Positions 3,191 through 47,995 of a stretch of 64,000 nucleotides of DNA are shown piece by piece. The DNA lies in the NCBI GenBank assembly GCA_002294405.1, contig DBFP01000018.1:3203-67202 (forward strand), in the 5' to 3' direction. Source of the stretch: Anaerolineales bacterium UBA877. Its GTDB lineage: Bacteria; Chloroflexota; Anaerolineae; Anaerolineales; Villigracilaceae. Below the pieces are notes generated by a model. That model had not been told where the DNA came from. It did no database searches and saw nothing but the letters and a program-made list of their open reading frames with translations. The translations under genes were made by a program, and so were the position numbers. Each line of letters starts with the position of its first letter. Positions within the stretch are counted from its first letter, which is position 1.

Positions 3191-3235
3191 TATCCCATGA
3201 GCCTTGCGCCCATACCAGATTTGAAAGGATTCACC

Positions 3236-4255: not shown

Positions 4256-4270
4256 TTCAAGGAGAATAAG

Positions 4271-5653: not shown

Positions 5654-5659
5654 GCGTTG

Positions 5660-14019: not shown

Positions 14020-15468
14020 TTATACGCGGCCCACTTTGGCACGCCACATTGGGACAAACTCATCCCGATAAAAATTCGCCTTTGCCAGGTCGGGAGTCAT
14101 TTCCACGACGTTTTCAACCATATCAGTTGATGCTTCCATTTTATTCATTAATCCGACCCCATAAGCTGCCATGAGCGCTGCCCCCAAGACTGCATTTTCA
14201 GACCCGGTAATTCGTACCGGTTTTCCAAACAAATCAGCCGCTACCTGAGACCAGACGCGACTTTTCTGCAAGCCTTTCCCTCCAGCCATAAAATAATCGC
14301 TCCGATCATTAATTTTCATGATCTCATAACCGTCCAATAAATCCATCAATACCCCTTCCATCACGGCTTTGGTTCGATGGGAAATGCTGTCCAGCCGGGT
14401 TGTGTTTCCGAAGAAACCTTTCCTGCGACTGGTTTGTTGCCGGGTGGGTCCCGTGCAAAAGAACAAACCGTCAGATCCAGGAGGTACTTGGGCGGCTAAT
14501 TCATCCATTTGGGAGTAATTGATGATTTTCCCTTTCTCCTGATTAATTTGCCCACGCAGCCATTGGTAACTGGTCCCTCCACCCAGGCTGGTTCCCACAA
14601 CAGCATAGGCGTCGTTGAAGAATGTGCGTGTGTCCATCCCAGGGTAGCGGATAAATTCCGCAATCACCTGTGATATTTGGGCGGCTGTTCCGATATTGAT
14701 CAGGATGGGTGAACCCGGCACAGTCAACCCGCTTCCCACCATGCTCATCTGGTTATCGCCTCCGCCATAGATGACAGGGATTTTTCTTTTCAAACCGATG
14801 GAATCGCCAACCTGGTTCGATATTGTCCCAGCTTGCTGAGGAGCCAGGTTGACATCTGGAAATATTCGGAGAGGAAGCTGTAATTTCTGAATTAGCTCTT
14901 CGTGCCAGAAATTTAACTTGGTATTGAATAGGCCGGTGCCAAATGCATTCGTCCGATCGGTGGCATAGTCGTTCTTTCCCAATAATTTTCCACGCAGGAA
15001 ATCGGTGGGCAAGACAAAATGCATGATCCTGCGGAATAAATCCGGATCTTTTTCCCTGATCCCGAAAAGGATCGCTCCGCTATATCCGCTGGAAATTTCA
15101 GTTCCCAATTCGTCGTATGTCCGAACCCCCATAACCTGTTTCATTTTTTGCATGGTGGTTTGGGAACTCCATTTCTGGTCCTGCCAATTGATCAGGGGAC
15201 CGATCGGGTTCCCAACACCGTCATACAGAACTGCTCCGTGCATCTGACCCGTTAAACCAATAGCCCGGACAGTACCCCGACCGTCCAGCTTTATAACCGA
15301 TTCCCGGGTGGCATCAACTGTCTTTTCCCAAAGAGTTTCGAGATCCTGCTCGGCGTCGTCAGGGTAGCTGCGTGTGGACACACAATTCAATTCCAGTGTT
15401 GCAAGGTCGACCAGCCCGGTTTTCACACCAGACGTCCCCAGATCAATGCCCAGGACGTAATCCTTCAT
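14020..15468 (-). CDS. FGGY-family carbohydrate kinase (xylulokinase-like) 2
   Basis: 482 residues from the ATG at 15468, which overlaps the TGA of the preceding kinase gene (ATGA), so translation is coupled. N-terminal GIDLGTSGVKTGLVD is the phosphate-1 loop; LTGQMHGAVLYD is the xylulokinase-type substrate segment; GGGDNQMSMVGSG and MAGGKGLQKSRVW are the ATP/adenosine region. It is clearly a paralogue of the upstream kinase but diverged, and its substrate segment and ATP loop differ (GGDN versus GGGDQAAQAVG), so it may act on another ketose. Confidence 0.88.
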   Translation of the reverse strand: MKDYVLGIDLGTSGVKTGLVDLATLELNCVSTRSYPDDAEQDLETLWEKTVDATRESVIKLDGRGTVRAIGLTGQMHGAVLYDGVGNPIGPLINWQDQKWSSQTTMQKMKQVMGVRTYDELGTEISSGYSGAILFGIREKDPDLFRRIMHFVLPTDFLRGKLLGKNDYATDRTNAFGTGLFNTKLNFWHEELIQKLQLPLRIFPDVNLAPQQAGTISNQVGDSIGLKRKIPVIYGGGDNQMSMVGSGLTVPGSPILINIGTAAQISQVIAEFIRYPGMDTRTFFNDAYAVVGTSLGGGTSYQWLRGQINQEKGKIINYSQMDELAAQVPPGSDGLFFCTGPTRQQTSRRKGFFGNTTRLDSISHRTKAVMEGVLMDLLDGYEIMKINDRSDYFMAGGKGLQKSRVWSQVAADLFGKPVRITGSENAVLGAALMAAYGVGLMNKMEASTDMVENVVEMTPDLAKANFYRDEFVPMWRAKVGRV

Positions 15469-16955
15469 GCCATTTGCTCGAAACTGGGCTTGAGGGACGG
15501 GTAGAGTTGGCAATAACGCGGATATGCTTTGCGATAGGCTTCAACCTGGTCTGGATCCGGCGACGTAATATTGGTGATCTTGACGATCTGATCACAAGCT
15601 GTGGGTACATCCTTCCATGAGCCAGCTCCGACCCCTGCTAGCAAGGCTGCCCCGAAAGCCGCGCCTTCGGTTGTGTTAACCGTCACCAGCTCTGCTTCTA
15701 GGATGGACGCCAGGATTTGCCTCCAAAGAGCGCTCTTCACGCCGCCCCCGGAAGCGCGTATCTGGCGAATTTCACCCAGCCCGGCGTTTTGGATCAGGGT
15801 GAAGCTGTCTTTCAAACCGTAGGATACACCTTCGAGTACAGCCCGCGTCAGGTGTCCGCGGGCGTGGCGCAGGGTAAGCCCTATCCAGGCTCCCCTCGCA
15901 AGTGGATCTGCGTACGGTGTCCGCTCACCACTCAAATACGGCAGGAATTGAAGCCCCTCGCTTCCTGCAGGGACCGATTCAGCTTCCAGCAGCAGATCGT
16001 CGAAGCTGATACCTGGCGCCAGCGTGTCACGGTACCACTGCAGGCTTCCCGCTGCGGACAGCATGACGCCCATGAAATGCCACATCCCGGGAACGGCGTG
16101 GCAAAAGGCATGCAGACGGCCTTCGGGCTCGATCAACGCAGTGGGAGTTGTAGCGAAGACCACGCCGCTGGTGCCGACCGCCAATGAAACAACACCAGGT
16201 TTGACCGCACCGACACCGACAGCCTGGGCAGCCTGATCACCGCCACCAGCAGCAACCGGAGTGCCGGATTTCAACCCGGTTGCGGCAGCCGCTTCGGCGG
16301 TAACTTTTCCAGTGAACTCTGGTCCCTCTAAAGTCGGCGGCATCCACTTACCCGGAATATCGAGCGCTGCCAACACTTCCTCTGACCAATCGCGGGCACG
16401 CAAGTCAAACAGCACCGTCCCTGAGCCATCGGCCTTGTCCATGGCATATTCCCCGGTCAGACGGTAACGAATGTAATCCTTGGGGAGCAGGACATGCCTT
16501 GCGCGGGAATACACCTCCGGTTCGTTCTCCTTCACCCATAAGATCTTCGGTGCTGTGAAGCCGGTCAGGGCGATGTTCCCGGTGACCTGGATGAACTTTT
16601 CTTTCCCGACCCGGGCATGGATATCGTCACACTGCGCCTGGGTGCGCCCGTCATTCCATAGGATGGCAGGGCGCAAGACCTCGCCGGCCTCGTCCAGTAG
16701 AACCAGACCGTGCATCTGTCCTGTCAGGCCGACCGCGGAGATGGCTTCACCCCCGATGCCTGCTTTTTCCAGGGCACCATGGATGCTGGCTGAAACCGCC
16801 TGCCACCATTCTTTCGGATCCTGCTCCGACCAGAGAGGCTTGGGCGTCTGAAGCGTGTGCGGACTGGAAGCCACGGAAACCATTTCTCCACGTTCATCGA
16901 TCAACAGGGCCTTGCTAGATGTTGTAGACGTATCGATACCCAGGAAATAATTCAT
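15465..16955 (-). CDS. xylB: Xylulokinase 1
   Basis: 496 residues from the ATG at 16955 (GAGGA 5 bases upstream; an in-frame Met at 16979 lacks an RBS). It phosphorylates D-xylulose to xylulose 5-phosphate. Motifs: GIDTSTTSSKALLID at the N-terminus, SAVGLTGQMHGLVLLD with xylulokinase MHG, LWNDGRTQAQCD, AAGGGDQAAQAVGVG, and RASGGGVKSALWRQILA near the C-terminus. It follows GH3 and xylose isomerase genes, completing xylose entry into the pentose phosphate pathway. Confidence 0.93.
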   Translation of the reverse strand: MNYFLGIDTSTTSSKALLIDERGEMVSVASSPHTLQTPKPLWSEQDPKEWWQAVSASIHGALEKAGIGGEAISAVGLTGQMHGLVLLDEAGEVLRPAILWNDGRTQAQCDDIHARVGKEKFIQVTGNIALTGFTAPKILWVKENEPEVYSRARHVLLPKDYIRYRLTGEYAMDKADGSGTVLFDLRARDWSEEVLAALDIPGKWMPPTLEGPEFTGKVTAEAAAATGLKSGTPVAAGGGDQAAQAVGVGAVKPGVVSLAVGTSGVVFATTPTALIEPEGRLHAFCHAVPGMWHFMGVMLSAAGSLQWYRDTLAPGISFDDLLLEAESVPAGSEGLQFLPYLSGERTPYADPLARGAWIGLTLRHARGHLTRAVLEGVSYGLKDSFTLIQNAGLGEIRQIRASGGGVKSALWRQILASILEAELVTVNTTEGAAFGAALLAGVGAGSWKDVPTACDQIVKITNITSPDPDQVEAYRKAYPRYCQLYPSLKPSFEQMA

Positions 16956-17015
16956 GGTTTCCTCGCAATAGGGTTGCAACCGTAGCGGCGAAGCAGCGCT
17001 TTGCCCTTACTAAAA

Positions 17016-19322
17016 TTATCGAATAGTTACCGGGCAAACAAACACCCATTCTTTGACCATGGTCTTCTTCTCCCCAATTACATCAAACTCACCTTCGCAA
17101 CGAATATCCGCTGATGATGAGCCGACCATCACTTTGAACGAGCCACTTTCGACCACGAGATTTAGATCGGCATCGTGGAAAGCCAGCTGGTCAATGGGCA
17201 GGTGAAAGGTGATGGTTTTACTTTCGGCAGGCGCAAGGCCTAGGCGGGCGTAACCTTTCAGTTCTTGCACCGGTCGCGGCAGGCTGGCGAACTCATCTTG
17301 AATATAGAGTTGGGCGACTTCATCCCCGGCGATGCTCCCAGTATTGGTGATTTTTACCGAGATATCGAGTTTTTCCCCGGCGGTAAGTTCTGTTTTGGAG
17401 AGGGCAAAATCGCTATAGGCAAAAGAGGTATAGCTCAGTCCGTGCCCAAATGGATAGAGCGGGCTGGCATCCACGCTGACATAATTGACGTACCAGTTGG
17501 AGCGCCCAGCGCTGGGTTTGTGATTGTAGTAAATGGATGTCTGACCGACATGACGAGGGAAAGTCATTGGAAGCTTGCCGCCGGGATTGTTTTCGCCCAG
17601 CAGGGTTTCCACGATTGCTGCTGCGCCTTCTTCACCGGGGAGCCAGGCTTCGAGGATGGCATCCGCTTTTTCGGCGATGTTGTTGATAGCATAGGGGCGA
17701 CCAGTGACCAGAACAACGATCACAGGTTTTCCAGTAGCGAAAATCACGGATGCCAGTTTTTCCTGAACGCCGGGCAGGATTAGATCGCCGCTGTCACGGG
17801 TCTCGCCGACTGTGCAATTGGGGGTCGAGCCAGCCCGGTCGCCGAGAACGAGAAGCACCGTATCTGCGACTCTTGCAGCCTGGATGGCCTCGCCAAAGCC
17901 AGATTCGTCTTCGACCAGATTGTCGCAGCCTCGAGCGTAGAAAATATCCTTATTGGGCAAAGCGGTTTTCAGGGCGGTCAGCAGGGAGGGTGTTCTAACG
18001 GCGAAACGCTCAACATGTGCCGAATCCTTTTTTTCAAAAGTGGAATCAGCAGGCAGCATCGATCCCATTAGTTCTAGCACAGCCGCATAGCTGTAATCGC
18101 CAAGGAAACTGCGCCCGTCTTCAGCATTGGGACCAATCACAGCGAGAGACTGGAATTGGCTGAGCGGGAGCGCGCCGTTATTCTTAAGCAGTACCATGCT
18201 CTTGAACGCAATTTCGCGAGCCAGGGCACGCTGGGAATCGGTTTCAAAGACTTCAGGGACGCAGCCTTCATCGACAAATGGATTTTCGAAGAGACCAAGT
18301 TCGACTTTTTTCCGCAGGATGCGCCCGACGGCGGTATCCACATATTCAAGGTTGATTTCACCCGATTCGAGCGCGGCGCGGAGCGGCTCATTGTAATAAC
18401 TGCAAGATGGCAGTTCAACATCAATGCCAGCACGTAAGGCAAGAACAGCCGCTTCCTGAGGGTGGGAGGCGGCGCGATGATAGGTGAAAATCATCGGAAT
18501 GGCTTCGTAGTCTGAAACAACCAGACCATCAAAACCTAGCGTGCCACGGAGTAAATCCGTGAGAATTCGGCGGGAGGCAGCCACCACTTCTCCATCGAGT
18601 TCAGGATAGGCATTCATGATGCTGGCAATATTTGCATCACGGATTACGGCCTGGAACGGAACGAGAAACGTATCCCATAGATCGTGGATGCCGATATGCG
18701 AGGGGGCGCAGTTCTGCCCGCCCTGCGAGGCACTGTGCCCGACAAAGTGCTTACCAGTTGCCATGACGCCGTTATTGATATTTTCGCCTTGCAAGCCGTG
18801 CACGTACGCCATGCCAAAATGACTGACGAGGGTTGGATCTTCGCCGAAAGTTTCCTCAACACGGCCCCAACGCGAGTCGCGGGCAACATCAAGCACGGGC
18901 GCCAACCCCTGATGGGCCCCCACGCCTCGCAATTGCCTGCGGATCTCGGTGGTCATTTTTGCGGCCAAATCGGGCTGAAAGGTGGACGAAAGCCCAATCA
19001 TCTGCGGGAACATTGTGCCGCCAAGTCCCATATAGCCAGAACAGCATTCCTCATGAACAATGGCAGGAATGCCAAGGCGAGTCTCATGAACGAGGTAATG
19101 CTGGATGGCATTGTTGAAGCGGGCAACCGCGGCAGGATCCAAGGTGGAGTCTCCGGCAGTGCGGGTGATCTGCCCAATGCCGTTTTGGAGCAGCTTTTTG
19201 GCTCTGGCAGGCGAAAAATCCCTGTCTTCCTGGATTTCGTGCATCCAACAAGAGCCGAGCTGAACAAGTTTTTCGTCCAGGGTCATCCGGGCAAGGAGGG
19301 ATTCTGGGGTAGGAGAGGACAT
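17016..19322 (-). CDS. GH3 beta-glucosidase/beta-xylosidase, cytoplasmic
   Basis: About 768 residues from the ATG at 19322 (AGGGA upstream). The longer in-frame start at 19397 would overlap the xylose isomerase stop and is less likely. The GH3 N-domain holds GKHFVGHS and the nucleophile Asp in GLVVSDYEAI. The C-domain follows with NPGGKLPMTFPRHVGQ, and a fibronectin-III-like tail with LKGYARLGLAPAESKTI ends the protein. There is no signal peptide, so it cleaves imported oligosaccharides. Between xylose isomerase and xylulokinase it is most likely a beta-xylosidase; beta-glucosidase activity cannot be excluded. Confidence 0.9.
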   Translation of the reverse strand: MSSPTPESLLARMTLDEKLVQLGSCWMHEIQEDRDFSPARAKKLLQNGIGQITRTAGDSTLDPAAVARFNNAIQHYLVHETRLGIPAIVHEECCSGYMGLGGTMFPQMIGLSSTFQPDLAAKMTTEIRRQLRGVGAHQGLAPVLDVARDSRWGRVEETFGEDPTLVSHFGMAYVHGLQGENINNGVMATGKHFVGHSASQGGQNCAPSHIGIHDLWDTFLVPFQAVIRDANIASIMNAYPELDGEVVAASRRILTDLLRGTLGFDGLVVSDYEAIPMIFTYHRAASHPQEAAVLALRAGIDVELPSCSYYNEPLRAALESGEINLEYVDTAVGRILRKKVELGLFENPFVDEGCVPEVFETDSQRALAREIAFKSMVLLKNNGALPLSQFQSLAVIGPNAEDGRSFLGDYSYAAVLELMGSMLPADSTFEKKDSAHVERFAVRTPSLLTALKTALPNKDIFYARGCDNLVEDESGFGEAIQAARVADTVLLVLGDRAGSTPNCTVGETRDSGDLILPGVQEKLASVIFATGKPVIVVLVTGRPYAINNIAEKADAILEAWLPGEEGAAAIVETLLGENNPGGKLPMTFPRHVGQTSIYYNHKPSAGRSNWYVNYVSVDASPLYPFGHGLSYTSFAYSDFALSKTELTAGEKLDISVKITNTGSIAGDEVAQLYIQDEFASLPRPVQELKGYARLGLAPAESKTITFHLPIDQLAFHDADLNLVVESGSFKVMVGSSSADIRCEGEFDVIGEKKTMVKEWVFVCPVTIR

Positions 19323-19386
19323 TGTGAATTTCCCTGCTTCAGGGATCAAGTTTTCTCTAAGGCCGGATACCGAAAACTTGATATGT

Positions 19387-20547
19387 TTATCGCACACCCG
19401 TTAGGATATCGATCGTGAGCTGGTCGAGCCGTTCGTATTTCAGCCCACGGCTGGAAACAGAGGCGCGTTCAAATGATTGGGCTTTGAGGGCAGCCGCTTT
19501 TTCAACGGAGTATTTGCCGAAGAAGGGCATCATCGCGGCATCTTCAGCATTGATTTCCGCCAGAATTGCCTGGACTTCCTTATCCGCATTGAAGTGGGCG
19601 GCTTTTTCCTTGAGGATGAGATAGGTGCGCATGCAGCCACATGCAAAATCCTTCACGCCCTCGTAGTCCTCGGTGCGGTAGGCATGGGCGTCGAAGTGGC
19701 GGCTGCCACTGTATCCCACATCCTCGAGAAACTTGACAAGGTAGAAGGCCGCCTTGATATCGCGCGAGCCAAAACGCAGGTCCTGGTCATAACGTCCGGG
19801 GTACTGGTCGTTCAGGTCGATGTGGAACAGTTTCCCCGCCTCCCATGCCTGCGCCACGCCGTGAGTGAAGTTGATCCCTGCCATGTGCTCGTGCGCCACT
19901 TCAGGGTTGACACCGACCATTTCGTGATGGTCGAGGGTCGCGATGAAGGCCAGCATGTGCCCGGTGGTCGGGTTGAAGATGTCGCCGCGCGGCTCGTTGG
20001 GCTTGGCCTCCAGTGCGAATTTCAGATCATACTTCTTATCCCGGACGTATTCGCACAGGAAGTTCATCGCTTCGCGGCTGCGTTTGATGGACTCAATCAC
20101 ACTTTTACTGGAATCCGTTTCCGTGCCCTCGCGCCCGCCCCAGAACACGTACACTTTCGCTCCGAACTCCACACCCAGGTCAATGGCATTCATTGTCTTC
20201 TGAAGCGCATATGCACGCACCCGGGAATCGTTGGATGTAAAAGCCCCGTCCTTGAATACCGGGTCACCAAATAAATTGGTGGTTGCCATTGGAACAACCA
20301 ACCCTGTCTCGGCCAAAGCTTTATGGAAGGATTTCTTTATCCCATCTGCTTCAGACGGGGTAGCATCGATCGGGATCAGATCGTTGTCGTGGAAGTTGAC
20401 ACCGTAGGCGCCGACCTCTGCGAGCAAGTGAACCAACTCGGCTGGTGACTTCGGCTCACGCACCGGGCCTCCAAATGGGTCACGACCTAGGTTGCCAACC
20501 GTCCAAAGGCCAAAAGTAAATTTGTGTTCAGGTTTGGGAGTGTACAT
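19387..20547 (-). CDS. xylA: Xylose isomerase, short class
   Basis: 386 residues, the length of the actinobacterial/Thermus-type class. It converts D-xylose to D-xylulose. The catalytic His is in NFHDNDLIP, metal ligands in [13 protein letters not shown] (Glu, Lys), [14 protein letters not shown] (Glu, His), [16 protein letters not shown] (Asp triad) and HFDAHAYR (Asp). The RBS is AGGAG before the ATG. It is followed at once by GH3, two kinases and an SDR. A 136-base gap separates it from the URO-D gene upstream, so a separate promoter is possible. Confidence 0.96.
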
Positions 20548-22566: not shown

Positions 22567-22591
22567 CACTCATCTCCTGAATAGTAAACTT

Positions 22592-24811: not shown

Positions 24812-25849
24812 TTACTCCTCGCTTAATGAAAGTTCCAAATTGTATTCAATCGTTTGACCCGGAGTCAGCATGACCAAAGTACCGCGTGCGCGTTCGGAAG
24901 CGCGTCCCTCCACGTGGCAATTGGCTGGCTCGATTCCAAGCACATGCGTTCCTTCACCAGGCATTTTCCATTGCACCAAAACTGGCAGGCTGCTCACCTC
25001 CCAAGCTAAACGGACCGTGAGCGGACGGTTTGAAGCTGGAAAATGTGGATTTCTCACGGTAACAGAGACAGTCCCATCCACCTCAGGAGATAGATTCTCA
25101 TGGTAATAGACACGCTCCTTGTAATCCACCTGCGGCAGATGCCAATCCCCCAGGTTTTCGATGGGCGTCCCAGGCTCACGCGGACTCACCGCGGCGGACG
25201 GGAAGCAAACTTGGGTCTGGGCGTCAAGCAAAGGAAAACCAAAATTGAAGTGGTACAGCAGCATGTGAGGAGCTGGATCAAACCCGGCGTTTTCAACAAC
25301 ATCCCGGATTTTGATCTGGTTTTTACCCAAGCGGCTTCTGATTTCACGGGTCAGGCGCATATTCCAGCCGAAAATGGACGTTTCTTCCACTTTGCCCTTT
25401 ACAAACGTGATGTATTCATCCCCTTCCCAAAAACCTTCAGCGCAGACCTGGTTTGCCGGGGTGTGGTGGGCGCGCCCATGCAATCCCAGTTCCTCGCCGT
25501 CATCCGTTCCGGGTGACCCAACTTGGGTGAGCCCACAGGTCATCAACAAACCTCCGGCGGCAGTCCGCAGCCACCCTGAACCATGACCATCGAAAAATGC
25601 CGGATTCGCCTCCCCGTTTGGTGAAATCCAGCTTATCGGCGTTCCCTTGAACTCAGCCAGTCCAATATCCATCCCACGTGAAGGCAGAACACTGTAAGCC
25701 AAACCAGCCCCGGTGCGAACCTGGATCTCTTCGACACCGGACTCCCTCCCTTCGGTCGATTGAACACGATGCAAGCCCCCAATCTGTTCGATGCGACCCA
25801 GGCGGGCTTCCAACTCGCGGCGCGACCATTCTCTTCCATATAAGTTCAT
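24812..25849 (-). CDS. Aldose 1-epimerase-like protein (DUF4432)
   Basis: 345 residues. SVLPSRGMDIGLAEFKGTPI, GLLMTCGLTQVGSPG, ELGLHGRAHHTPA and ILGIEPANCHVEGR match the DUF4432 branch of the galactose mutarotase fold. These proteins are thought to interconvert sugar anomers. The ATG overlaps the TGA of the lyxose isomerase gene (ATGA), so mutarotation and isomerisation of the same sugar are a natural pair. Confidence 0.87.
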   Translation of the reverse strand: MNLYGREWSRRELEARLGRIEQIGGLHRVQSTEGRESGVEEIQVRTGAGLAYSVLPSRGMDIGLAEFKGTPISWISPNGEANPAFFDGHGSGWLRTAAGGLLMTCGLTQVGSPGTDDGEELGLHGRAHHTPANQVCAEGFWEGDEYITFVKGKVEETSIFGWNMRLTREIRSRLGKNQIKIRDVVENAGFDPAPHMLLYHFNFGFPLLDAQTQVCFPSAAVSPREPGTPIENLGDWHLPQVDYKERVYYHENLSPEVDGTVSVTVRNPHFPASNRPLTVRLAWEVSSLPVLVQWKMPGEGTHVLGIEPANCHVEGRASERARGTLVMLTPGQTIEYNLELSLSEE

Positions 25850-26394
25850 GGTTCAACAATCTCCGGGATACGGCGGATACGGGGGTCGGTAAAAACATCG
25901 TTTTCGTCACTGCTGGTGCTGGAAAACTCGGACACGATGGCACCCTGGTCCGAGGCCTGGAACCAATGCAGGGTATCAGGCGGGATGGTGAACTGTTCGC
26001 CTGGGTTGAGCTTGATCTCGTGGAAAACGGTGTAATAGGCCTCACTCCCCACCGGCGGTCTGCCGCCCCGACCCATTGTCGGCTCCCCCTCAACGTACAG
26101 CCAGACACCTCCCCAGCGGCAACGAAAAGTTTCCATTTTCCCGGAGCTGCCTGCCACTTCAGGATGGCGGTGCTCCGGGCATGTCTGGCGCGGGAAGAGG
26201 ACCAATTCCTTGGCGCAGTAGCGGTCATTATTGATATACACCACAAGTTCCAGCCCGGTCTTATCCAGTTCGCCCAGGCCCAGTTCGGCCACTTCGATAT
26301 TCCTGCGCTCTTCAGGTGTGAGGATAATCCCGGCGCGCTCCAACATCTGAGCCGCGCGTTCCTGAGCCAATTGAACTTGAATGCGAGTGATCAT
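25846..26394 (-). CDS. D-lyxose isomerase-like cupin
   Basis: 182 residues of the cupin D-lyxose ketol-isomerase family. Metal ligands are in CPEHRHPEVAGSSGKMETF (two His and a Glu) and DTLHWFQ (third His). Known D-lyxose isomerases convert D-lyxose to D-xylulose and also D-mannose to D-fructose; the mannosidase gene in the same cluster makes mannose a good candidate. Its ATG overlaps the stop of the aldehyde oxidoreductase gene and its stop overlaps the next ATG, placing it inside a tightly coupled set. Confidence 0.88.
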   Translation of the reverse strand: MITRIQVQLAQERAAQMLERAGIILTPEERRNIEVAELGLGELDKTGLELVVYINNDRYCAKELVLFPRQTCPEHRHPEVAGSSGKMETFRCRWGGVWLYVEGEPTMGRGGRPPVGSEAYYTVFHEIKLNPGEQFTIPPDTLHWFQASDQGAIVSEFSSTSSDENDVFTDPRIRRIPEIVEP

Positions 26395-28241
26395 CGATCC
26401 AGCTCCTTCTTTGACACGGACAGGAAGGTATTTATTGGTAAGAGCTGATCCAACCCAAGGTCGGTCAACCTTTGCATTGTGGGAATGCCATTTTTGTCCC
26501 AGCCCATGCGGGCATAGTAATCATCCAGCATCCCATCCAGTTCCACCACCTGACCCTTGGCCGGACCCTCCGCCATGGACTGGGAGAGATTGCGCGCCGG
26601 CAGGGTATCCTGCCTGCGATCAAATCCTTCTCGCGCGTTGAACAACCGGCAAAGGGTGCTAATCCGTTCGCCAACCTGTTCGAACTCCTTCACCGAACCA
26701 TATTCAAAACCAGTGACCGCATTGACCAATTGCCACAATTCTTTCAAATTCATTCCGAATCCAGGAAAACAGCAAAGAACTGCGCTGTTCCACAGGGCGC
26801 TTTCCGATTGGTGTTCGCGGAAAAGTTGTGCCTTGGCATCCGGAGTAAGAGGATCGGCTCCTCCCAAGACTTCGCTGAGAGGTGCTCCGCGCAGGTGACA
26901 AGCACCCCGCTCCGAAATTGCGTAACCAAGCGCCATCCCTTTGGCAGCGTTCGGGTGGTATGCAGGCATCTCCAGTCCTTTGACGTGCATGGCAAAGGAG
27001 ATTGCTTCGGGATAGTTCTCGGCGATTTTTGCCACTCCCTGACTCAACCATTCTCCACAGCCTTCCACCTTTGCCATTTTCCCTATAAGGGCGAGGGCAG
27101 ACTGGCAGTTACCAAAGCGCGGTTCAATACCGTCCAGGTCGCTGGCGCGCACCAATCCGGTCTCGAACATCTCCATTACAAAACCGACTATACCCCCGGC
27201 GCTGATCGTGTCGATGCCATACTCGTCGCAAAGCAGTGACATGCGGATGATCGCCTCCCGGTCACCGATGCCGCAGTTGGATCCGAGCGCAAAAGTTGTC
27301 TCGTATTCCGGTCCCTCGAGCAGTTTCCCATCCACCGGACGGGTGACCTTGCTGCAGGCGATCGGACATCCAAAACAAGCGTAATTGGACTGCCACTCAT
27401 GCTCACGAAATGATGAGCCGGTGATCGCATCTGCAGCCTCGAACTGACCCTGGTGGAAATTGCGGGTTGGCAAAGCACCAACCGCATTGATAAACTCCAG
27501 GATGTTGGCCGTGCCATCCAGCTTCATGCGGGAGATGCTGCTGGACATACGGATGGCCCGGGTGGCAAGCTGCATGGCACGATCGAAACGGACCCGGTCT
27601 GCAACTGCAACAGTGCCGGTACCGCGCGCCACGACGGCTTTAAGGTTCTTAGAGCCCATGACCGCTCCGACCCCACCCCGCGCCAAGGCACGGGTCTCGT
27701 TAAAGATACCGGCAATGTATGAGCGCTTCTCCCCAGGAGGGCCAATGACCAATGACTGCCAGCCTGGTCCGAACTGCTCTTGCAGGATTTCATTGGCTTG
27801 TGGAATTGACCGGCCCCACAAGTGCGAGGCAGGACGCAGCTCGACATGGGCATCATCGATAACCAGCAGGACCGGCTCGGGGGCTGCCCCCTGCAGGATG
27901 ACAGCGTCATAACCGGCATATTTAAGAGTCTGACCAATGAAACCACCGCAGTAGGCGTCAGAGTATGTACCGGTAGCCGGGCTTTTGGTGGTACTGCCTA
28001 GCCGACCACCCGTGGGGGCAGTGGTGCCGGTCAGCGGGCCGACATCCAGTATGAGACGGTTCTCAGGAGAGAGTGCATCCACATATGGTGGCAGTTCCTT
28101 TATAAGCAGGTATGCTCCCAACCCTTTGCCACCCAGAAGTGGTCGCATGGCTTGTTCCGGGAGTGATTCCCTGCCGAATATACCGCTTGTCAAGTCGACC
28201 CGCAGTATGCAGTCGTTATAACCCCGTGATTTGAGGTTCAA
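26391..28241 (-). CDS. Aldehyde:ferredoxin oxidoreductase (tungsten)
   Basis: 616 residues, usual for the AOR family. It oxidises aldehydes to acids and reduces ferredoxin, using a tungsten or molybdenum bis-pterin and one [4Fe-4S] cluster. N-terminal GGKGLGAYLL, GPLTGTTAPTGGR and SPATGTYSDAYCGG are family motifs; the cluster ligands are in ACFGCPIACSK plus a later Cys in AVLCCFPGFG. The start is TTG at 28241 overlapping the TGA of the aldolase-ferredoxin gene, with AAAGGA upstream. Immediate neighbours supply an aldehyde (aldolase) and an electron acceptor (fused ferredoxin). Confidence 0.95.
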   Translation of the reverse strand: MNLKSRGYNDCILRVDLTSGIFGRESLPEQAMRPLLGGKGLGAYLLIKELPPYVDALSPENRLILDVGPLTGTTAPTGGRLGSTTKSPATGTYSDAYCGGFIGQTLKYAGYDAVILQGAAPEPVLLVIDDAHVELRPASHLWGRSIPQANEILQEQFGPGWQSLVIGPPGEKRSYIAGIFNETRALARGGVGAVMGSKNLKAVVARGTGTVAVADRVRFDRAMQLATRAIRMSSSISRMKLDGTANILEFINAVGALPTRNFHQGQFEAADAITGSSFREHEWQSNYACFGCPIACSKVTRPVDGKLLEGPEYETTFALGSNCGIGDREAIIRMSLLCDEYGIDTISAGGIVGFVMEMFETGLVRASDLDGIEPRFGNCQSALALIGKMAKVEGCGEWLSQGVAKIAENYPEAISFAMHVKGLEMPAYHPNAAKGMALGYAISERGACHLRGAPLSEVLGGADPLTPDAKAQLFREHQSESALWNSAVLCCFPGFGMNLKELWQLVNAVTGFEYGSVKEFEQVGERISTLCRLFNAREGFDRRQDTLPARNLSQSMAEGPAKGQVVELDGMLDDYYARMGWDKNGIPTMQRLTDLGLDQLLPINTFLSVSKKELDR

Positions 28242-29524
28242 TTGACCATTTTCCTTTCATCCATCGTGATCGCGCCGGTAGGACAGATCAGGGCACAGGC
28301 TGGAGCTCCATCACACAGATCACAGATGACCGGGTACCAGGGCAAGTCTTGATTCCCAGCTTGAACGCCGTGGTCTGATTTATAAACTACTTGAGTCGGG
28401 CAAATTTCCACACACTTCTCGCAGGCTGTGCAGAGTTCCACATCCAAGCTGACCGCCCCACTCGTGCCGTCCCAACACAGGGCATCAGTCGGGCAATCCT
28501 CGATGCACTTTTTACAAAGGGTGCAATAATAGACCTTATTCTGTCCCAGTTGAATGGGCTTGACCGTCAACCTGGCCAAATGGTTGCCAAACAGACCGGT
28601 CCCATGAGCTGCCACGCAAGCCGTCACGCAAAGCTGGCAGCCAGTGCACTTGGATGTGACAACCCGCAGGCGGACCTTATCCCACTTCCGTCCACGTTCG
28701 GCATCGTCGACCGAGTAATTTTCGTGCGCCACTTGGGCGAGACGGCGGACCAATCCCTCCGGATCTGGCGATTTGGTCACGTTGCGACCCATCAGGCAGC
28801 CCTGCCCGCCCGCCTGCAACCCTTCATCCAGCAGCTCAAGCGCATCACGCTCGTTTTCGGAACGTGCACCGCCCAGGACCAGCACCGGAACCTGTACCAC
28901 CGAAATCAAGTGGGCAAAGCTCTCCACGTCTCCCGTATAGGGAATTTTAATGGCATCCGCACCGAGCTCGGTGCACATACGCGCCCCCAGGGTGAGCAGA
29001 TCAACGATGTTAGTTCCAGTCACGTGACCGCCAAACGCCAGCGGCTCCATGATGCAGGGTAGCCCGACCTTGCGGCATTCGCTGGCGAATGCGGCGCAAG
29101 ACTCGATCCCGGTGGCTTCGACCTGATCGTTGTACCCCAGGAATAGATAGATGGTGATGGCAGTTGCACCCAGCTTTAAAGCCTGTTCAGCGGTGAGTAT
29201 TTTTTGGTGGTCGAGGTGACGCTGCGGGATGGCATTGGTGACATTGGAACCTCCCAAGCGGGGCATGTTCATCCAGTCGGCGCGGACGATCAGGGCTGGT
29301 CCATCCTGCACTCGGAAGAGAGGCGCCAGGCGGATGGCTTGCCCCGGGCTGAGCAGGATCCCGTCCACTCCCCCACGAATGACCGACCCAACAATGCTGC
29401 GCAGGTTTACCACATTGGGGGTGACATCGCTCATGTAGCCATGATCAGCAGCCACGCAAACGGCTCGCCCATCACCGTGGCGGTTGAATAACTTTTCCAT
29501 CCTTGAAGACAAACCACTATCCAT
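28238..29524 (-). CDS. DhnA-type aldolase fused to polyferredoxin
   Basis: About 428 residues from the ATG at 29524 (GAGG upstream); an in-frame TTG at 29536 overlaps the previous gene's stop and is the alternative. Residues about 1-265 are a class I aldolase of the DhnA/FbaB family, with VAADHGYMS, GQAIRLAP and the Schiff-base Lys in ADAIKIPYTGDVESF. Residues about 290-425 hold ferredoxin-like cysteine groups: CTGCQLCVTAC, CTLCKKCIEDCP, CTACEKCVEICP and CDLCDGAPACALICP, enough for about four [4Fe-4S] clusters, like the small subunits of AOR or formate hydrogenlyase. I know of no standard enzyme with this fusion. It suggests that aldol cleavage and oxidation of the aldehyde by AOR are physically linked. 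Confidence 0.9.
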   Translation of the reverse strand: MDSGLSSRMEKLFNRHGDGRAVCVAADHGYMSDVTPNVVNLRSIVGSVIRGGVDGILLSPGQAIRLAPLFRVQDGPALIVRADWMNMPRLGGSNVTNAIPQRHLDHQKILTAEQALKLGATAITIYLFLGYNDQVEATGIESCAAFASECRKVGLPCIMEPLAFGGHVTGTNIVDLLTLGARMCTELGADAIKIPYTGDVESFAHLISVVQVPVLVLGGARSENERDALELLDEGLQAGGQGCLMGRNVTKSPDPEGLVRRLAQVAHENYSVDDAERGRKWDKVRLRVVTSKCTGCQLCVTACVAAHGTGLFGNHLARLTVKPIQLGQNKVYYCTLCKKCIEDCPTDALCWDGTSGAVSLDVELCTACEKCVEICPTQVVYKSDHGVQAGNQDLPWYPVICDLCDGAPACALICPTGAITMDERKMVN

Positions 29525-29532
29525 TAACTGCC

Positions 29533-30300
29533 TCAACCGATCCCTTCGGGAGTTTTACGCACCAACTCGGCAAGTTCTGCCAAGGGCTTGGAAGGTTCCA
29601 GCCAGGTGTGATCCAGCCAGAGACCCGAGGCTCCCAGCCCCATGGCTTCTTCCCAATCTTCAGCATAGCTCCCGACCGAGGTGGGTTTCAGCAACCAAGG
29701 CACGCTTAGCATGGATGCAATCGTCTTGAGCGAGGCGATGCCGGGGTGAGGTACGATGACCACATCTGCGCCACTCTCCTGGGCATATGAGGCTCCCAAT
29801 TCTATTGCTTTTCCGCGAAGTACAACACGTGACCCAGTCGGGCAAACTTCAACCAGGAGAGGCAAGCCCAATTCTTTACCTGTCAGTGCCAGCTGGACTG
29901 TAGCCTTCAAGCACGCTGCCTCAAGTTCCTCTTCGTAGCCCAACAGGAAACTAAGCACCATTCCGCTTGCCCCCAGCTCAATGGCATCCACCGCGTCGAG
30001 GATGGAGACGCGGGTCGCTGTTTCGGGGGGTAGGGGAAAAGCCGCGCTGCGCAGAGTGTTCGTCCAGTCCATGCGCACCAGCAGGGCGGCATCTATACTT
30101 GTGCGATTTCCCAGCCGCTGGATTTGCCCCGGACTGCACACCAGGCCATCCAGGTGTGGTAGAACCGGTCGCAGATCTTCGGCGAAATTTTCCAAGCCTG
30201 GAAGAGCACCGAGCGAGAGTCCTGCGCTGGCATCCAGCAGCAAAGAATGTCGTCCTGTATCGGGGAAAAATTCCATCATCCAATCTTCGAGATTGTTCAT
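29533..30300 (-). CDS. Aldolase-like paralogue lacking the Schiff-base lysine
   Basis: 255 residues from the ATG at 30300 (AGGA upstream; the longer frame from 30357 overlaps the kinase gene). It aligns with the aldolase half of the next gene: LDASAGLSLG, CSPGQIQRLG, RMDWTN, GASGMVLSFLLGYEEELEA. At the Schiff-base position it reads ADVVIVPHPG where the partner has ADAIKIPYTG, so Lys has become Ile, and the DHG and YTGD motifs are lost. It is probably non-catalytic and could be a structural or regulatory partner of the fused aldolase, or act by another mechanism. Confidence 0.82.
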   Translation of the reverse strand: MNNLEDWMMEFFPDTGRHSLLLDASAGLSLGALPGLENFAEDLRPVLPHLDGLVCSPGQIQRLGNRTSIDAALLVRMDWTNTLRSAAFPLPPETATRVSILDAVDAIELGASGMVLSFLLGYEEELEAACLKATVQLALTGKELGLPLLVEVCPTGSRVVLRGKAIELGASYAQESGADVVIVPHPGIASLKTIASMLSVPWLLKPTSVGSYAEDWEEAMGLGASGLWLDHTWLEPSKPLAELAELVRKTPEGIG

Positions 30301-30326
30301 ATCAAGATTCCTGTAAAAATCAAGGC

Positions 30327-31520
30327 TCAAGCGCACGGACCGCGCCACAAGCTGCACACACGGTCAAATTGCCAACCCGGGGCGTTCAACTCCATGTGCC
30401 TGCGTTCCCATCCATTAGCCACACGCCGGGAGGTTTCCTCCCAGGTGCAAATGCCGCTTAAGGCGTCGGCTGCCTCCACATTGCAGGCTCCCACTGCAGT
30501 AGCCATGGTTAGTGCCTGTTCAACCGGTAGGTTGTTCAACAGCCCGGCAAGGAAACCGGCAATCGTGGCATCCCCTGAACCAGTGGTTCCTGCAACCGCA
30601 ACCTTGAAACAGGGGGCCCACAACTCCACACCAGCCCAGGCTTCCAAATCCGAGGGGCAGGCACGCCCGATCATATCAATTCCATCCCGACCAACTGTAC
30701 GCAAATACATCCCCCGTTCGCCCAACTTCAAACCGACAATTTTCACGCCCATGGCGATCAGCTCCCGGCCCAGATCTGACAGCATTTGCGGAGTGACCAT
30801 CGAAAGCAGGTCGGACCCCGAGGCGGAGTGGGACATTTCCCGATACGTGTCACCGTGCAGCATGAACAATATTTCCTCCACACTGGGTAAGAAAATATCT
30901 ACATACGGCAGAGTGCTTTCAAGGATGACACGCCAATCCACCAGACCTGCCTCCGATGATGGATCCGGAAGGGCCATATCCATGGAAGTGGTTACACCGG
31001 TTTGCCTGGCACGGAGGAATATTTCTTTCAACTGTATTCCACCGTTTGCATATAATGCGCGCATGATCGGCGGGTATCCAAAATGGAATATGCGCGCCTT
31101 TTCCAGGAGCGCATATGGCACGTCACCGGCATCAAAGATATCGTTCGCACCCGGATAATGCAGGAAGATGCGATCGACCCCGGGGTAATTAATGATGATT
31201 GAATAGGAGGTGCTGGTAGCGGAGTCGACGATCATTCCGTCCGTCAACCCATGACCGCGAGCTTTTACGATCTGGCGGATAGCCTGCCCAAAGAGATCAT
31301 CCCCAACCTTCCCTACAAGGCGCGTTGCGATTCCCAGTTTGTCCAGAGCCAGTCCAGTGTTGGAGACGGCTCCGCCTGTGGAACAAATGACCGGTCCGGC
31401 AGCCACAAGTCGACCAGGGAGAAAAGTATTATCAAACGGTTCTTTTCCTGACCCGCTCAGGTCGGGTTGGATGTCCAGGCAAATATGACCTGCAACCACT
31501 GCCTCAATATCACGGCTCAT
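30327..31520 (-). CDS. PfkB-family carbohydrate kinase
   Basis: 397 residues. N-terminal VVAGHICLDIQPDLS and TGGAVSNTGLALDKLG, and C-terminal TTGSGDATIAGFLAGLL (the GSGD anion hole with the catalytic Asp), are classic for the ribokinase/PfkB family. The N-terminal part is longer than ribokinase. Its ATG overlaps the mannosidase stop (ATGA). Since the next genes are DhnA aldolases, it probably phosphorylates the ketose they cleave, giving a 1-phosphate that yields dihydroxyacetone phosphate and a free aldehyde; this is inference. Confidence 0.9.
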   Translation of the reverse strand: MSRDIEAVVAGHICLDIQPDLSGSGKEPFDNTFLPGRLVAAGPVICSTGGAVSNTGLALDKLGIATRLVGKVGDDLFGQAIRQIVKARGHGLTDGMIVDSATSTSYSIIINYPGVDRIFLHYPGANDIFDAGDVPYALLEKARIFHFGYPPIMRALYANGGIQLKEIFLRARQTGVTTSMDMALPDPSSEAGLVDWRVILESTLPYVDIFLPSVEEILFMLHGDTYREMSHSASGSDLLSMVTPQMLSDLGRELIAMGVKIVGLKLGERGMYLRTVGRDGIDMIGRACPSDLEAWAGVELWAPCFKVAVAGTTGSGDATIAGFLAGLLNNLPVEQALTMATAVGACNVEAADALSGICTWEETSRRVANGWERRHMELNAPGWQFDRVCSLWRGPCA

Positions 31521-34366
31521 TTACGTTCCACCATCAGGGTGACCACTTTTTTGGGGGCTATACCAATTTTCACCCGTCCATCATTATCCTGGACCGGCTC
31601 GGTCTCGGTGCCCAGGGCGTCTCGCGGATTCTCATCCATCCCAGCCAAGTGAACACCTGCCGGGACGAAAGGTAAGAGGATGGTGGCTTCGGTAATTTCT
31701 TGGGAGGGGTTGTATAAGCGCAGTACCAGGGCATTCCCGGTCTCGGCTTTCTTTACGGAACTTAAAACAACGTTCCTGCCAGCTACACTCAGAAAGGAAC
31801 GCCTGGCAGGTTGAGTTCCGGCGGTAATTGCTGGGGGTCTTTTCTCCAGTCCGGTGGTGTAGGCGCGCGGCGGGTTATTGAACGTCAGCGCCTGCCGCCA
31901 GACCTCCGCCTGGTTCCAGGTCCCTGTATGCGGCAGGATGGAAAGTGAAAATGTCAATTTACGCTGGATCTGCGCTTCAGGCGTGGCAATGTGCGGACCG
32001 GCACCTACGGTAGTAGTCCGCATATCGTATCCGGCACCCAGGTATCCGACAGCGCGCAGCAGGGTGACGGCAACCTCGTGGCGATCGGTGTCCAGGATTT
32101 CGTATTCGGGTAAACCTTGAACGATAAGGCACAATCCTCGCTCCCCGTCGGAGAGATCGACCCAATCTTGCTGTGGAAATGTCGTCGGAGCATCTTCCAC
32201 CCAGGCTTCGTCCGGAACCGGCACGACCTTGACCGGATGGCTTACAACGTCGAACTGGGCGCTTGAATGGGAAACCTGTGTATTCACATCGCTTGGAAAG
32301 ATCATCCGCAGACGATGATCACGGGCGTGATTGTCGAAGGTCACCTGCAAGTCCATTCGGGGGGATCCATTGACCAGGGAAACGGTCACGCTGAGCGGGC
32401 AAGCCGCTCTCGAATCGCTGCGCCTTCGCCCCTCAGCATCCAATCCTTCCGGGAGCAGCCAGTCATAATCGATGCAACTGCGTTGAACAACCGGACCATC
32501 CGCAAGGCGGCTGATGCGAGGTGCGGATCCAAGCGTACTTTCCACCCGATCTTCCAGCGGGTAGGAGTAATTGTAGCCATCCCCGCAGTCACCACCGTCT
32601 TCGAAATAGCCCAGGTCACAATAGACCTGGCCGGTCGCTTTATCCTGAAGACTTATCGTACCATTTGTGGCGATCTGAATCCGCAGGGTTTCATTTTCGA
32701 GAACATTATGCGGATGGGCGATGATCACCGGCTTGTTGGGGTTCACCGTCGGCGCAACCGCATATACCTGATACCCATAGGGAGGTAGACTGGCCTCAAA
32801 CGATGCCCGCACGCATACACCTCTCCTTTCAGCAGCTGGTCCACTGACGAGAGGGCGAAGCACATGCGAGCGGTAAATTGATTCGATCTGTACGGGAAGC
32901 AGCCCGGTCCCATCCAATGGACGAATCCGCAAGCCGCGAAAATTCGGGTCCGGTAGAATGGGCGGGTCACCGTACCACTGCTCGAGTACTCTCTGGCGCA
33001 AGAGTGCCGGGGCATCCTTCTCTAGATCGGGTTCGGCAACGATGGCTGGTGGAGCCCAGCGACTCATAGCCACCCGATTAAGGAAGAAATCCCACAGATT
33101 CACATCTACGGTGATGCCGCCTTCGATGGGCCAGGGAAGACCATTAAAGACCACCAGGGCTGCCTCGTCGTCTTTCAGGCTCGAAAGGTCCACCTGGCGA
33201 GCCACCAATTCGAAGCGTTCACCCAGGATTTCAGTGGCTATCTCGGAAGACCAGTCAAAACGGGTTTCCATTTGAGCGTGGACCGGGTCGATGCTGCAAC
33301 CGCCAATCGAATCGTGAGGCTGGTTCTGGAGCAGCCACTCCCATGCCTTCCACAGGAATGCGTCGGGATATTCCTCCCCTGGTTTCCAGGTCAATACCGA
33401 CCATGGTTCCGCCCAATGCTCGAGCAAGGACTGGGTCCGCTCGTTTTTCATCTTGTTGTAGATACGGGAGGAAAGGATATGGGGGAGCAGGCGGTTGTCC
33501 CGGTCAGGGGTGCGGTTTGCATCCCGCAGCTCACCTGAGACTGTTTTCAAAGACCGGTTTCCAAGAGACTTCACGAGTTCATTGAAATAGTCCTCCAGAG
33601 AAGCCTGCCGGAAGTGGAATTCATCCTCAAAAAGCCGGTTGGCGTATTCCAGGATTGCAGGCAGGTCTTCACGGGCGGGGAGATGGTCGATGCCATTTAA
33701 GGCCAGAAGCACCGAAGACCCGGCGCGTATGGTTTCGTAGCGGGCGAAGGTGTGCAGATCTGCGGCAGCCTGTTGGACTTCCAGCCCAAGTGATGATGCA
33801 TTGCCATAGCCCATGTTCGTTGGCAGGTGGCGCAGCAAAACACGGCTTCCGTCAGGAGACTGCCACCATACTTCGGATTTTAAATCGGCTTCGTCCAGGC
33901 CGCGGAAGTGCATGGCAAATGGTATGCCGAACCCTTGTAAAATCTGCGGCAGTTGGGAGATATGCCCAAACGTGTCGGGGATGTAGCCAACCTTTTGGAC
34001 GTGTCCGAACTCATTGGCAATCCGGTGCCCCAATAGTAGATTTCGAACCAGGGATTCTCCGCTAACCAGGAACTCGTCCGGCAACACGAACCAAGGTCCA
34101 ACGCCAAGGCGGCGTTCCTGGACCAGCTTATGGAGGATCTCATGGTTCTCTGGGCGGATCTCAAGGTAGTCGTTAAGGACGACTGTCTGTGCATCTAAAT
34201 TGAAATGGGTGTACGATGGGTCGCGCTCCATCAGGTCGAGCAGGGCATCCATGACATGCACCAGGCGGACGCGAAACTGCTGGAATGTGGCGTACCATTC
34301 CCGGTCCCAATGTGTGTGTGGGATGACGAAGACTGTTGACCTATCGGCAGAGGATTGTTTTGGCAT
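31517..34366 (-). CDS. GH38 alpha-mannosidase, cytoplasmic
   Basis: 949 residues from the ATG at 34366 (GGAG upstream; an earlier in-frame Met at 34393 has no RBS). FVIPHTHWDREWYATFQ is the zinc motif, YIPDTFGHISQLPQIL carries the nucleophile Asp, and AHPHNVLENETL begins the C-terminal beta region. The lengths fit bacterial GH38 enzymes acting on mannosides, including glycerate-linked mannose. No signal is present, so it works inside the cell on imported oligosaccharides. It begins the run of coupled genes through kinase, aldolases, AOR and lyxose isomerase. Confidence 0.93.
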   Translation of the reverse strand: MPKQSSADRSTVFVIPHTHWDREWYATFQQFRVRLVHVMDALLDLMERDPSYTHFNLDAQTVVLNDYLEIRPENHEILHKLVQERRLGVGPWFVLPDEFLVSGESLVRNLLLGHRIANEFGHVQKVGYIPDTFGHISQLPQILQGFGIPFAMHFRGLDEADLKSEVWWQSPDGSRVLLRHLPTNMGYGNASSLGLEVQQAAADLHTFARYETIRAGSSVLLALNGIDHLPAREDLPAILEYANRLFEDEFHFRQASLEDYFNELVKSLGNRSLKTVSGELRDANRTPDRDNRLLPHILSSRIYNKMKNERTQSLLEHWAEPWSVLTWKPGEEYPDAFLWKAWEWLLQNQPHDSIGGCSIDPVHAQMETRFDWSSEIATEILGERFELVARQVDLSSLKDDEAALVVFNGLPWPIEGGITVDVNLWDFFLNRVAMSRWAPPAIVAEPDLEKDAPALLRQRVLEQWYGDPPILPDPNFRGLRIRPLDGTGLLPVQIESIYRSHVLRPLVSGPAAERRGVCVRASFEASLPPYGYQVYAVAPTVNPNKPVIIAHPHNVLENETLRIQIATNGTISLQDKATGQVYCDLGYFEDGGDCGDGYNYSYPLEDRVESTLGSAPRISRLADGPVVQRSCIDYDWLLPEGLDAEGRRRSDSRAACPLSVTVSLVNGSPRMDLQVTFDNHARDHRLRMIFPSDVNTQVSHSSAQFDVVSHPVKVVPVPDEAWVEDAPTTFPQQDWVDLSDGERGLCLIVQGLPEYEILDTDRHEVAVTLLRAVGYLGAGYDMRTTTVGAGPHIATPEAQIQRKLTFSLSILPHTGTWNQAEVWRQALTFNNPPRAYTTGLEKRPPAITAGTQPARRSFLSVAGRNVVLSSVKKAETGNALVLRLYNPSQEITEATILLPFVPAGVHLAGMDENPRDALGTETEPVQDNDGRVKIGIAPKKVVTLMVERK

Positions 34367-34457
34367 ATAGCATTTCTCCACTGGTCGTGGCAATTAATGG
34401 TGACTTAAACAAAAAAATGAAAAACGCCCAGCCTTATATCCAGAAAATATAATCCAG

Positions 34458-47954: not shown

Positions 47955-47995
47955 AAGGTTTGCCTTTTTACCTCACTAATCCCTTTAAAAATGGG

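Follow-up and report, generated by a model that had tools for sequence, protein, structure and literature searches.

A conserved aldolase-polyferredoxin fusion next to a tungsten aldehyde oxidoreductase in Anaerolineales: a candidate three-gene module for sugar cleavage and aldehyde oxidation

Introduction

In archaeal glycolysis, fructose-bisphosphate (FBP) aldolase acts before the glyceraldehyde-3-phosphate oxidoreductase GAPOR; the two are separate enzymes, and the aldehyde between them is phosphorylated. Known relatives of the DhnA aldolase fold are rings of ten. Among tungsten aldehyde:ferredoxin oxidoreductases (AORs), the sections cited here of work on Aromatoleum aromaticum AorABC describe AorA clusters that connect AorB to AorC and a C-terminal AorA helix that builds filaments (PMC10413684). 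Archaeal homodimers bind a bridging iron through two conserved residues that are absent from the enzymes of A. aromaticum and M. thermoacetica (PMC6365974, in the part cited), and many AOR and WOR clades are described as still purely hypothetical enzymes (PMC12096430, likewise in part). Here we describe a locus in a 64,000-nucleotide stretch of Anaerolineales bacterium UBA877 (GCA_002294405.1, contig DBFP01000018.1, positions 3,203 to 67,202 of the forward strand), the whole of which we call the window. One of its genes, FUS, joins a class I aldolase to a polyferredoxin and lies between a second, degenerate aldolase gene (ALD2) and a tungsten AOR gene. The arrangement is an AOR/polyferredoxin pair with its electron wire fused to an aldolase, together with a companion aldolase that has no catalytic Lys. 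The original prediction, made from the letters of the DNA, knew of no characterised enzyme with this architecture, and search listings of open-licence PMC full text showed no description of an aldolase-polyferredoxin/AOR arrangement.

Results

The fusion gene and its homologues

The three genes and the parts of FUS lie in the window as follows.

28238..29536, minus strand: FUS, class I (DhnA-type) aldolase fused to a four-[4Fe-4S] polyferredoxin, TTG start
28697..29524, minus strand: aldolase domain of FUS, residues 5-280, with DHG 31-33, E164, K197, GG 222-223 and GRN 250-252
28946-28948, minus strand: codon of the FUS Schiff-base K197
28262..28669, minus strand: polyferredoxin domain of FUS, residues 290-425, with 16 cluster cysteines at 297-418, related to AorA, Wor5S and MvhB
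26391..28241, minus strand: AOR, tungsten aldehyde:ferredoxin oxidoreductase, its start overlapping the FUS stop (TTGA)
29533..30357, minus strand: ALD2, degenerate DhnA aldolase paralogue without the Schiff-base Lys

FUS is a single open frame with no internal stop, and positions 25001-31000 contain zero N. An alternative frame from an ATG (28238-29524, minus strand) encodes 428 amino acids, the length of the protein database entry for this gene (P0001), and the ATG at 29524 is the likely true start. The product matches PF01791 (DeoC/LacD aldolase) over residues 26-254 with 81.3 bits, passing the curated cut-off of 23.8, and many Fer4 models match residues 295-427. Its sixteen cluster cysteines form four [4Fe-4S] sets (297/300/303/307, 338/341/344/348, 369/372/375/379 and 405/408/414/418), and K197 sits in the motif KIPYTGD. 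With the unbroken frame, the PF01791 match and the sixteen cysteines, the original prediction of one gene for a DhnA-type aldolase with its Schiff-base Lys and about four [4Fe-4S] sets holds, as does its claim that the FUS stop overlaps the AOR start, both sharing TTGA. The AlphaFold2 model of FUS (mean predicted local distance difference test, pLDDT, 80) has the MJ0400 barrel as its best Foldseek match, with TMt 0.84 to the MJ0400 complexes with FBP and dihydroxyacetone phosphate (DHAP).

A first homologue search with FUS found 605 proteins, 120 of them listed; a second, seeded with the FUS of L011, the locus that diverges most (53 per cent identical), found 565, again with 120 listed. The union of the listed matches comprises 223 fusion proteins of 378-455 amino acids, the window's own included, and there are thus at least 223 overall. 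A corresponding search with ALD2 found 303 homologues and listed 120, and all residue counts below refer to listed proteins. K197 is kept in the alignment in 223 of 223 fusions, and so are the GG and GRN phosphate motifs. D31, H32 and G33 are present in 220, and the other three proteins give no coverage of those positions. Fifteen of the sixteen cluster cysteines occur in 222-223 of the 223, and C372 in 212. Source names include Anaerolineales, Anaerolineae, Chloroflexia, candidate division KSB1 and Calditrichaeota, and source annotations include class I or DhnA-family fructose-bisphosphate aldolase and hydrogenase-type Fe-S or 4Fe-4S protein, among others. One homologue, P0208, carries the source label of a Mycobacterium leprae metagenome-assembled genome, probably a mislabelled bin.

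A tree of 30 FUS, 26 ALD2 and 17 stand-alone aldolases (16 of the 22 described below and one from Sinorhizobium, L069) places all 30 FUS in one group (support 99/99) and all 26 ALD2 in another (100/99). The order of the three groups is unsure given long branches (ALD2 of L011, L069), and only one-group status was used, not the root. Because FUS forms a single group, one fusion event would be the simplest reading. A single metagenomic window could owe such a gene to an artefact, a frameshift, chimera or annotation error having joined two genes, but the chance of this is negligible: 223 listed proteins from many contigs and sources share the architecture, FUS is one tree group and the frame here is unbroken. 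A frameshift or chimera is ruled out as the origin of FUS, and with it the assembly error that the original prediction had named as its own refutation. The FUS architecture is real and conserved.

The module is sparsely distributed. Occurrence figures are lower bounds, few candidates having been scored per genome: FUS was found in one of 400 genomes in the phylum sample of genome G001 (G001 itself), in 3 of 38 in the family sample and in 6 of 251 in the order of G007. The order of G010 gave matches in 28 of 154 genomes, six of them fusions and twenty-two stand-alone aldolases. A tblastn search of plasmids returned 66 records, none covering 80 per cent of the query, and in the 20 rows listed only the aldolase half is matched; sixteen pattern matches in viral contigs include no relative.

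The AOR and the order of the genes

The window AOR contains the AFOR_N and AFOR_C domains, scores 458 bits to the P. furiosus AOR (1aor) and resembles AOR far more than GAPOR. The nine module AORs compared all have the four cluster cysteines (CCCC), and all nine lack the EXXH motif, which we take to be the bridging-iron site of the archaeal AOR homodimer.

We judged fourteen loci: the window, eleven from genome contigs and two from whole-genome searches. ALD2 is directly upstream of FUS in all fourteen. In L009 the contig stops within FUS and the AOR side is not judgeable (1/14), and in L005 it stops within AOR. FUS is immediately followed by AOR in all thirteen judgeable loci (the window and twelve from Chloroflexota), so that the pairing with AOR, on which the original prediction turned, has no counterexample among them. 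Gaps between the three genes, with starts as chosen, run from -16 to +16 bases in eleven loci, except in L035, where one is 222 bases. Pairwise distances of ALD2, FUS and AOR across eleven loci correlate with rho 0.82, 0.88 and 0.86; the sequences are related, and p-values were not used.

The association also holds when AOR is the query. An AOR profile search of twenty genomes gave eleven matches at 1200-1285 bits, all adjoining FUS, and all other AORs scored at most 536 bits. Across the family of 38 and the order of 154 genomes, a complete or near-complete module-type AOR is found in eight genomes, every one with FUS. Two module-type AOR fragments stand without it, in G435 and G635, where the FUS side is missing from the assembly: the G435 gene starts right behind a 100-N spacer and the G635 gene at contig base 2, and FUS was not found elsewhere in either genome. 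The G435 contig itself (contig 1, L119) consists of pieces of about 2.7 kb chained by 100-N spacers, and gene order across the spacers is unreliable.

ALD2 is part of this unit. At 325 bits or more it occurs in 6 of 154 genomes in the order of G010, the same six that hold FUS. Position 197 is V, A or I in all 120 listed ALD2 proteins, the Schiff-base Lys being lost, and the phosphate motifs are mostly gone (Gly222 in 2/120, Gly250 in 8/120). Retained are R85, W88 and R93 (120/120), N90 (119) and E/D164 (118). The DW-N--WR motif is common to most stand-alone relatives too, and is thus a feature of the subfamily and no proof of a FUS-ALD2 interface. The AlphaFold2 model (mean pLDDT 78) again best matches the MJ0400 barrel (TMq 0.76 to 2qjg), so the fold is kept in a protein that is seemingly catalytically dead. 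The architecture of FUS, its conserved residues, and the order, co-occurrence and co-inheritance of the three genes are thereby established.

Active site and stand-alone relatives

In the alignment, K197 of FUS coincides with the Lys that forms the Schiff base in MJ0400 and in the archaeal FBP aldolase (FBPA). Where FBPA has Trp144 and Tyr146 (Tyr153 in MJ0400), FUS has E164 and L, M or I at 166; we take Tyr146 and Tyr153 to be the catalytic Tyr, acting as general acid/base. E164 and P165 are invariant in the 223 listed fusions, residue 166 is L, M or I in every one, and the Glu-Pro motif recurs in seventeen aligned stand-alone relatives. E164 may assume the acid/base role. FUS also falls below the NCBIfam equivalog cut-offs for ADH_synth (135.8 of 299 bits) and Fbpase1_Arch (131.4 of 430). 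The original prediction was right about the fusion and the AOR, and missed both the upstream ALD2 and the replacement of the catalytic Tyr.

The unfused aldolases of this subfamily come from twenty-two further genomes in the order of G010. A PfkB kinase of the type found next to the module in the window (KIN, below) directly adjoins the aldolase in seven of eight fetched loci (L071-L076, L078); the eighth, L077, has an FGGY kinase and a class II aldolase nearby. In Rubrobacter, a stand-alone relative that is 38 per cent identical adjoins an FGGY kinase. No AOR match at E 1e-30 was found in four of the seven stand-alone-aldolase genomes examined. Sugar kinases are the companions of the aldolase subfamily, and AOR is the companion of the fusion. 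Because the stand-alone relatives adjoin sugar kinases, the aldolase substrate is probably a phosphorylated sugar, for which these loci are the best evidence. The pairing of a Glu-Pro aldolase with a KIN-type kinase in L071-L076 and L078 is possibly an AOR-free version of the sugar step.

The electron path

Among solved structures, the Fe-S half of FUS is closest to MvhB (69.8 bits, several repeats), followed by AorA (8c0z_C, 59.6), Wor5S (6x6u_B, 53.0) and the small subunit 9mqx_E (36.5), and MvhB leads again in a profile search with FUS. The original prediction had likened this half to the electron-transfer subunits of AOR; kinship to AorA, Wor5S and 9mqx_E bears that out, although the polyferredoxin MvhB scores higher. 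The FUS chain runs fourteen residues beyond its last cysteine, and the model has no C-terminal helix there. No Pfam domain of an AorC-like subunit, which would bind flavin adenine and nicotinamide adenine dinucleotides (FAD/NAD), was found among the forty window proteins scanned. Since the helix is missing from the model and no AorC-like protein was seen, the acceptor would be a soluble ferredoxin, and the part that drives assembly would be the aldolase barrel, not a helix.

Sugar genes around the module

Sugar-related genes around the module in the window are the following.

30327..31520, minus strand: KIN, PfkB-family sugar kinase
25846..26394, minus strand: LyxI, D-lyxose isomerase, overlapping the AOR end
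24812..25849, minus strand: DUF4432 protein, presumably aldose-epimerase-like, overlapping LyxI
31517..34393, minus strand: GH38 alpha-mannosidase/mannosylglycerate-hydrolase-like glycosidase, overlapping KIN
15465..20547, minus strand: pentose catabolism context, with xylose isomerase (19387-20547), GH3 (17016-19397) and xylulokinase (15465-16979)

From 34393 down to 24812 the minus strand carries GH38, KIN, ALD2, FUS, AOR, LyxI and DUF4432 in one run in which adjacent genes overlap or stand only a few bases apart. LyxI scores 252 bits to the Thermofilum D-lyxose isomerase (7nzo) and 219 to its B. subtilis counterpart, and retains the equivalent of R175. That residue is credited, in the part of the source cited, with specificity for lyxose over mannose (PMC8378251); its presence here is only suggestive because the E. 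coli enzyme (LI) also has an equivalent Arg. The xylose isomerase and xylulokinase of the window exceed their curated cut-offs, and the KIN family gives no decision on substrate. Because LyxI and the xylose genes point to a pentose and GH38 argues for mannose, D-xylulose 1-phosphate (glycolaldehyde to glycolate) would be our first choice of substrate in the window and D-fructose 1-phosphate (glyceraldehyde to glycerate) the second.

An MGH1-like glycoside hydrolase (44365-45981) shares this region of the window with GH38 (31517-34393), a possible sign of mannosylglycerate or mannoside use. UroD-family proteins lie at 20684-23704, 46662-49036 and 55623-56699, one of them adjoining a two-domain B12-binding corrinoid protein; these genes look like corrinoid methyl transfer within a sugar locus. 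At 3197-6754 on the plus strand, an ornithine/aspartate-type carbamoyltransferase, an amino-acid permease and a PAD_porph (agmatine-deiminase-type) protein stand in a row.

Elsewhere the module keeps different company. Five loci (L001, L002/L037, L006/L043, L035, L036) share the order LarA-ALD2-FUS-AOR-TauE, in which ALD2 is immediately preceded by a LarA-like gene, truncated at the contig start in L035 and L036, and AOR is immediately followed by a TauE/SafE-family exporter. Of the eleven module loci, window excluded, in which the contig covers the region downstream, five thus have the exporter after AOR, and it also follows the AOR fragment in L119. The LarA-like gene belongs to a 2-hydroxy-acid racemase family (Pfam name lactate racemase), which would fit an AOR making lactate or glycerate from a 2-hydroxyaldehyde, and TauE could export the product. 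Near the module, UPF0261 and AP-endonuclease-2-type genes occur at L001:3450-6781, L037:331-4575 and L043:173-3245, together with a creatininase-family gene (L001, L037), a GFO/IDH/MocA gene (L037) and a PEP_hydrolase-like gene (L043). In three further loci an FGGY kinase, a class II aldolase and a fucose-isomerase-like protein lie by the module (L042:12915-16813, L039:5771-9638, L009:33-3703). The sole NCBIfam match of the L042 isomerase at E 1e-10 is the sulfoquinovose isomerase SftI, at 75 bits against a cut-off of 700. The module resembles a plug-in unit that could serve several pathways forming hydroxyaldehydes.

Discussion

We give a probability of roughly 0.57 to the reading that ALD2, FUS and AOR are a three-gene module for an aldolase/aldehyde-oxidising complex. 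What we propose of the complex, its direction, substrate and electron acceptor, the role of ALD2 and channelling is drawn from anatomy and context. K197 of FUS would form a Schiff base with a ketose-1-phosphate and yield DHAP and an unphosphorylated hydroxyaldehyde. AOR would dock on the fused polyferredoxin and oxidise the aldehyde to a 2-hydroxy acid at its tungsten-pterin, and electrons would run from AOR's own cluster to soluble ferredoxin by way of the four clusters in FUS. ALD2 would probably co-assemble in a DhnA-type ring, spacing the active FUS-AOR units or positioning the AORs; the idea of a mixed ring comes from the tenfold rings of known fold relatives. In the window, LyxI and KIN would feed the module from D-lyxose through D-xylulose and xylulose 1-phosphate to glycolaldehyde and glycolate, or else D-mannose or D-fructose would lead to glyceraldehyde and glycerate. 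At other loci this part would fall to a fucose-isomerase-like enzyme and an FGGY kinase, and in the LarA-TauE loci LarA would racemise the hydroxy acid and TauE export it. More tentative, and on balance doubtful in its full detail, is a mixed ring of active FUS and dead ALD2 with polyferredoxin arms ending in tungsten AOR, which would split ketose-1-phosphates and oxidise the aldehyde half on the spot; each sugar would yield DHAP, a hydroxy acid and two reduced ferredoxins, with neither a free aldehyde nor an aldehyde kinase.

Several observations weigh against an aldolase/aldehyde-oxidising complex. The window AOR scores 192.7 of 868 bits against the NCBIfam AOR equivalog NF007354, below the cut-off, and the AOR of L011 is divergent with a broken reading frame. 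The top solved relative of the Fe-S half, MvhB, is not a partner of an AOR. With the catalytic Tyr missing, FUS may catalyse a reaction other than simple cleavage of fructose 1-phosphate or FBP. KIN and LyxI adjoin the module in the window only, tblastn at E 1e-10 being negative in the thirteen other loci, and the class II aldolase in the sugar clusters of L039, L042 and L009 could itself perform the cleavage. The few genes scanned in L004 and L008 include none recognised as sugar-catabolic, and L010 has only a fucose-isomerase-like gene, about 5 kb off on the opposite strand.

The same parts could run in reverse, with AOR reducing a hydroxy acid at the expense of low-potential ferredoxin and the aldolase condensing the scarce aldehyde with DHAP to a ketose-1-phosphate, pulling the uphill reduction. 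AORs are described as capable of acid reduction at low potential in the cited parts of PMC6365974 and PMC12096430. MJ0400, the closest solved relative, is biosynthetic; the recognised neighbours in L004 and L008 are glycosyltransferases and other non-catabolic genes; LarA could provide the correct acid enantiomer, and a fusion would be most useful where the intermediate is scarce. We consider this direction unlikely, as the modules of the window, L039, L042 and L009 lie among isomerases, kinases, glycosidases, importers or LacI regulators, and an exporter is directly downstream in five other loci. It is rather unlikely, too, that the aldolase domain merely serves as a scaffold or as a regulator sensing sugar phosphates, leaving FUS as an electron-transfer subunit of AOR. 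The loss of the catalytic Lys in ALD2 shows non-catalytic use of the fold here, FUS lacks the catalytic Tyr, and the L039, L042 and L009 clusters encode a cleavage enzyme of another class; but a scaffold would need none of K197, DHG, GG and GRN, which are invariant where covered (220-223 of the 223 listed fusions), and the Glu-Pro motif is also kept in stand-alone relatives that adjoin a sugar kinase.

The exporter gene raises the prospect of sulfo-sugar degradation, in which the aldehyde would be 3-sulfolactaldehyde (or another anionic aldehyde), AOR would make sulfolactate and TauE would export it. TauE appears in parts of the sulfoglycolysis literature, a TauE/SafE gene comes right after AOR in those five of eleven loci and in the G435 fragment, and SftI is the only NCBIfam match of the L042 isomerase. 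That match lies far below its cut-off, the scanned genes include no recognised sulfoquinovosidase, the TauE exporters and the isomerases occur at different loci, and the window indicates a pentose or mannose. Moreover, TauE-family exporters carry other anions too. We regard a sulfo-sugar route as quite improbable.

If an aldolase/aldehyde-oxidising complex is correct, C-C cleavage would be covalently tied to a low-potential electron wire, giving a sugar route that yields reduced ferredoxin at the aldehyde stage, and a likely aldehyde source could be named for one AOR clade. Substrate channelling with a tungsten enzyme becomes testable, and a dead subunit as scaffold offers a design idea.

Comparison with known systems

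AorABC of A. aromaticum (8c0z; PMC6365974 and PMC10413684, in the sections cited) likewise has a tungsten AOR subunit and an adjacent four-cluster polyferredoxin, without the bridging-iron residues. In contrast to AorABC, the polyferredoxin here is fused to an aldolase and comes with an extra degenerate aldolase gene, the forty window proteins scanned include no AorC, and the FUS model has no C-terminal filament helix. WOR1 (Wor1L/Wor1S) and WOR5 (6x1o/6x6u, 9mqx) resemble the module in joining an AOR-family catalytic subunit to a small polyferredoxin subunit; unlike FUS, that subunit carries no fused aldolase. With the DhnA aldolases MJ0400 ADH synthase (2qjg), archaeal FBPA (1ojx) and LsrF (3glc), FUS shares the barrel, the Schiff-base Lys, DHG and GG/GRN, and ALD2 shares the fold. 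FUS differs from them in having Glu-Pro-Leu/Met/Ile in place of the Tyr and a C-terminal polyferredoxin, and ALD2 in lacking the Schiff-base Lys and, for the most part, the phosphate motifs. The Thermofilum D-lyxose isomerase (7nzo; PMC8378251, in the part cited) is a close relative of LyxI, which only neighbours the module, and does so in the window alone. FBP aldolase with GAPOR parallels the module in aldol cleavage followed by tungsten-dependent, ferredoxin-reducing oxidation of the aldehyde, whereas in the module the aldolase and the electron wire are fused, the aldehyde is proposed to be unphosphorylated and the oxidoreductase resembles AOR far more than GAPOR.

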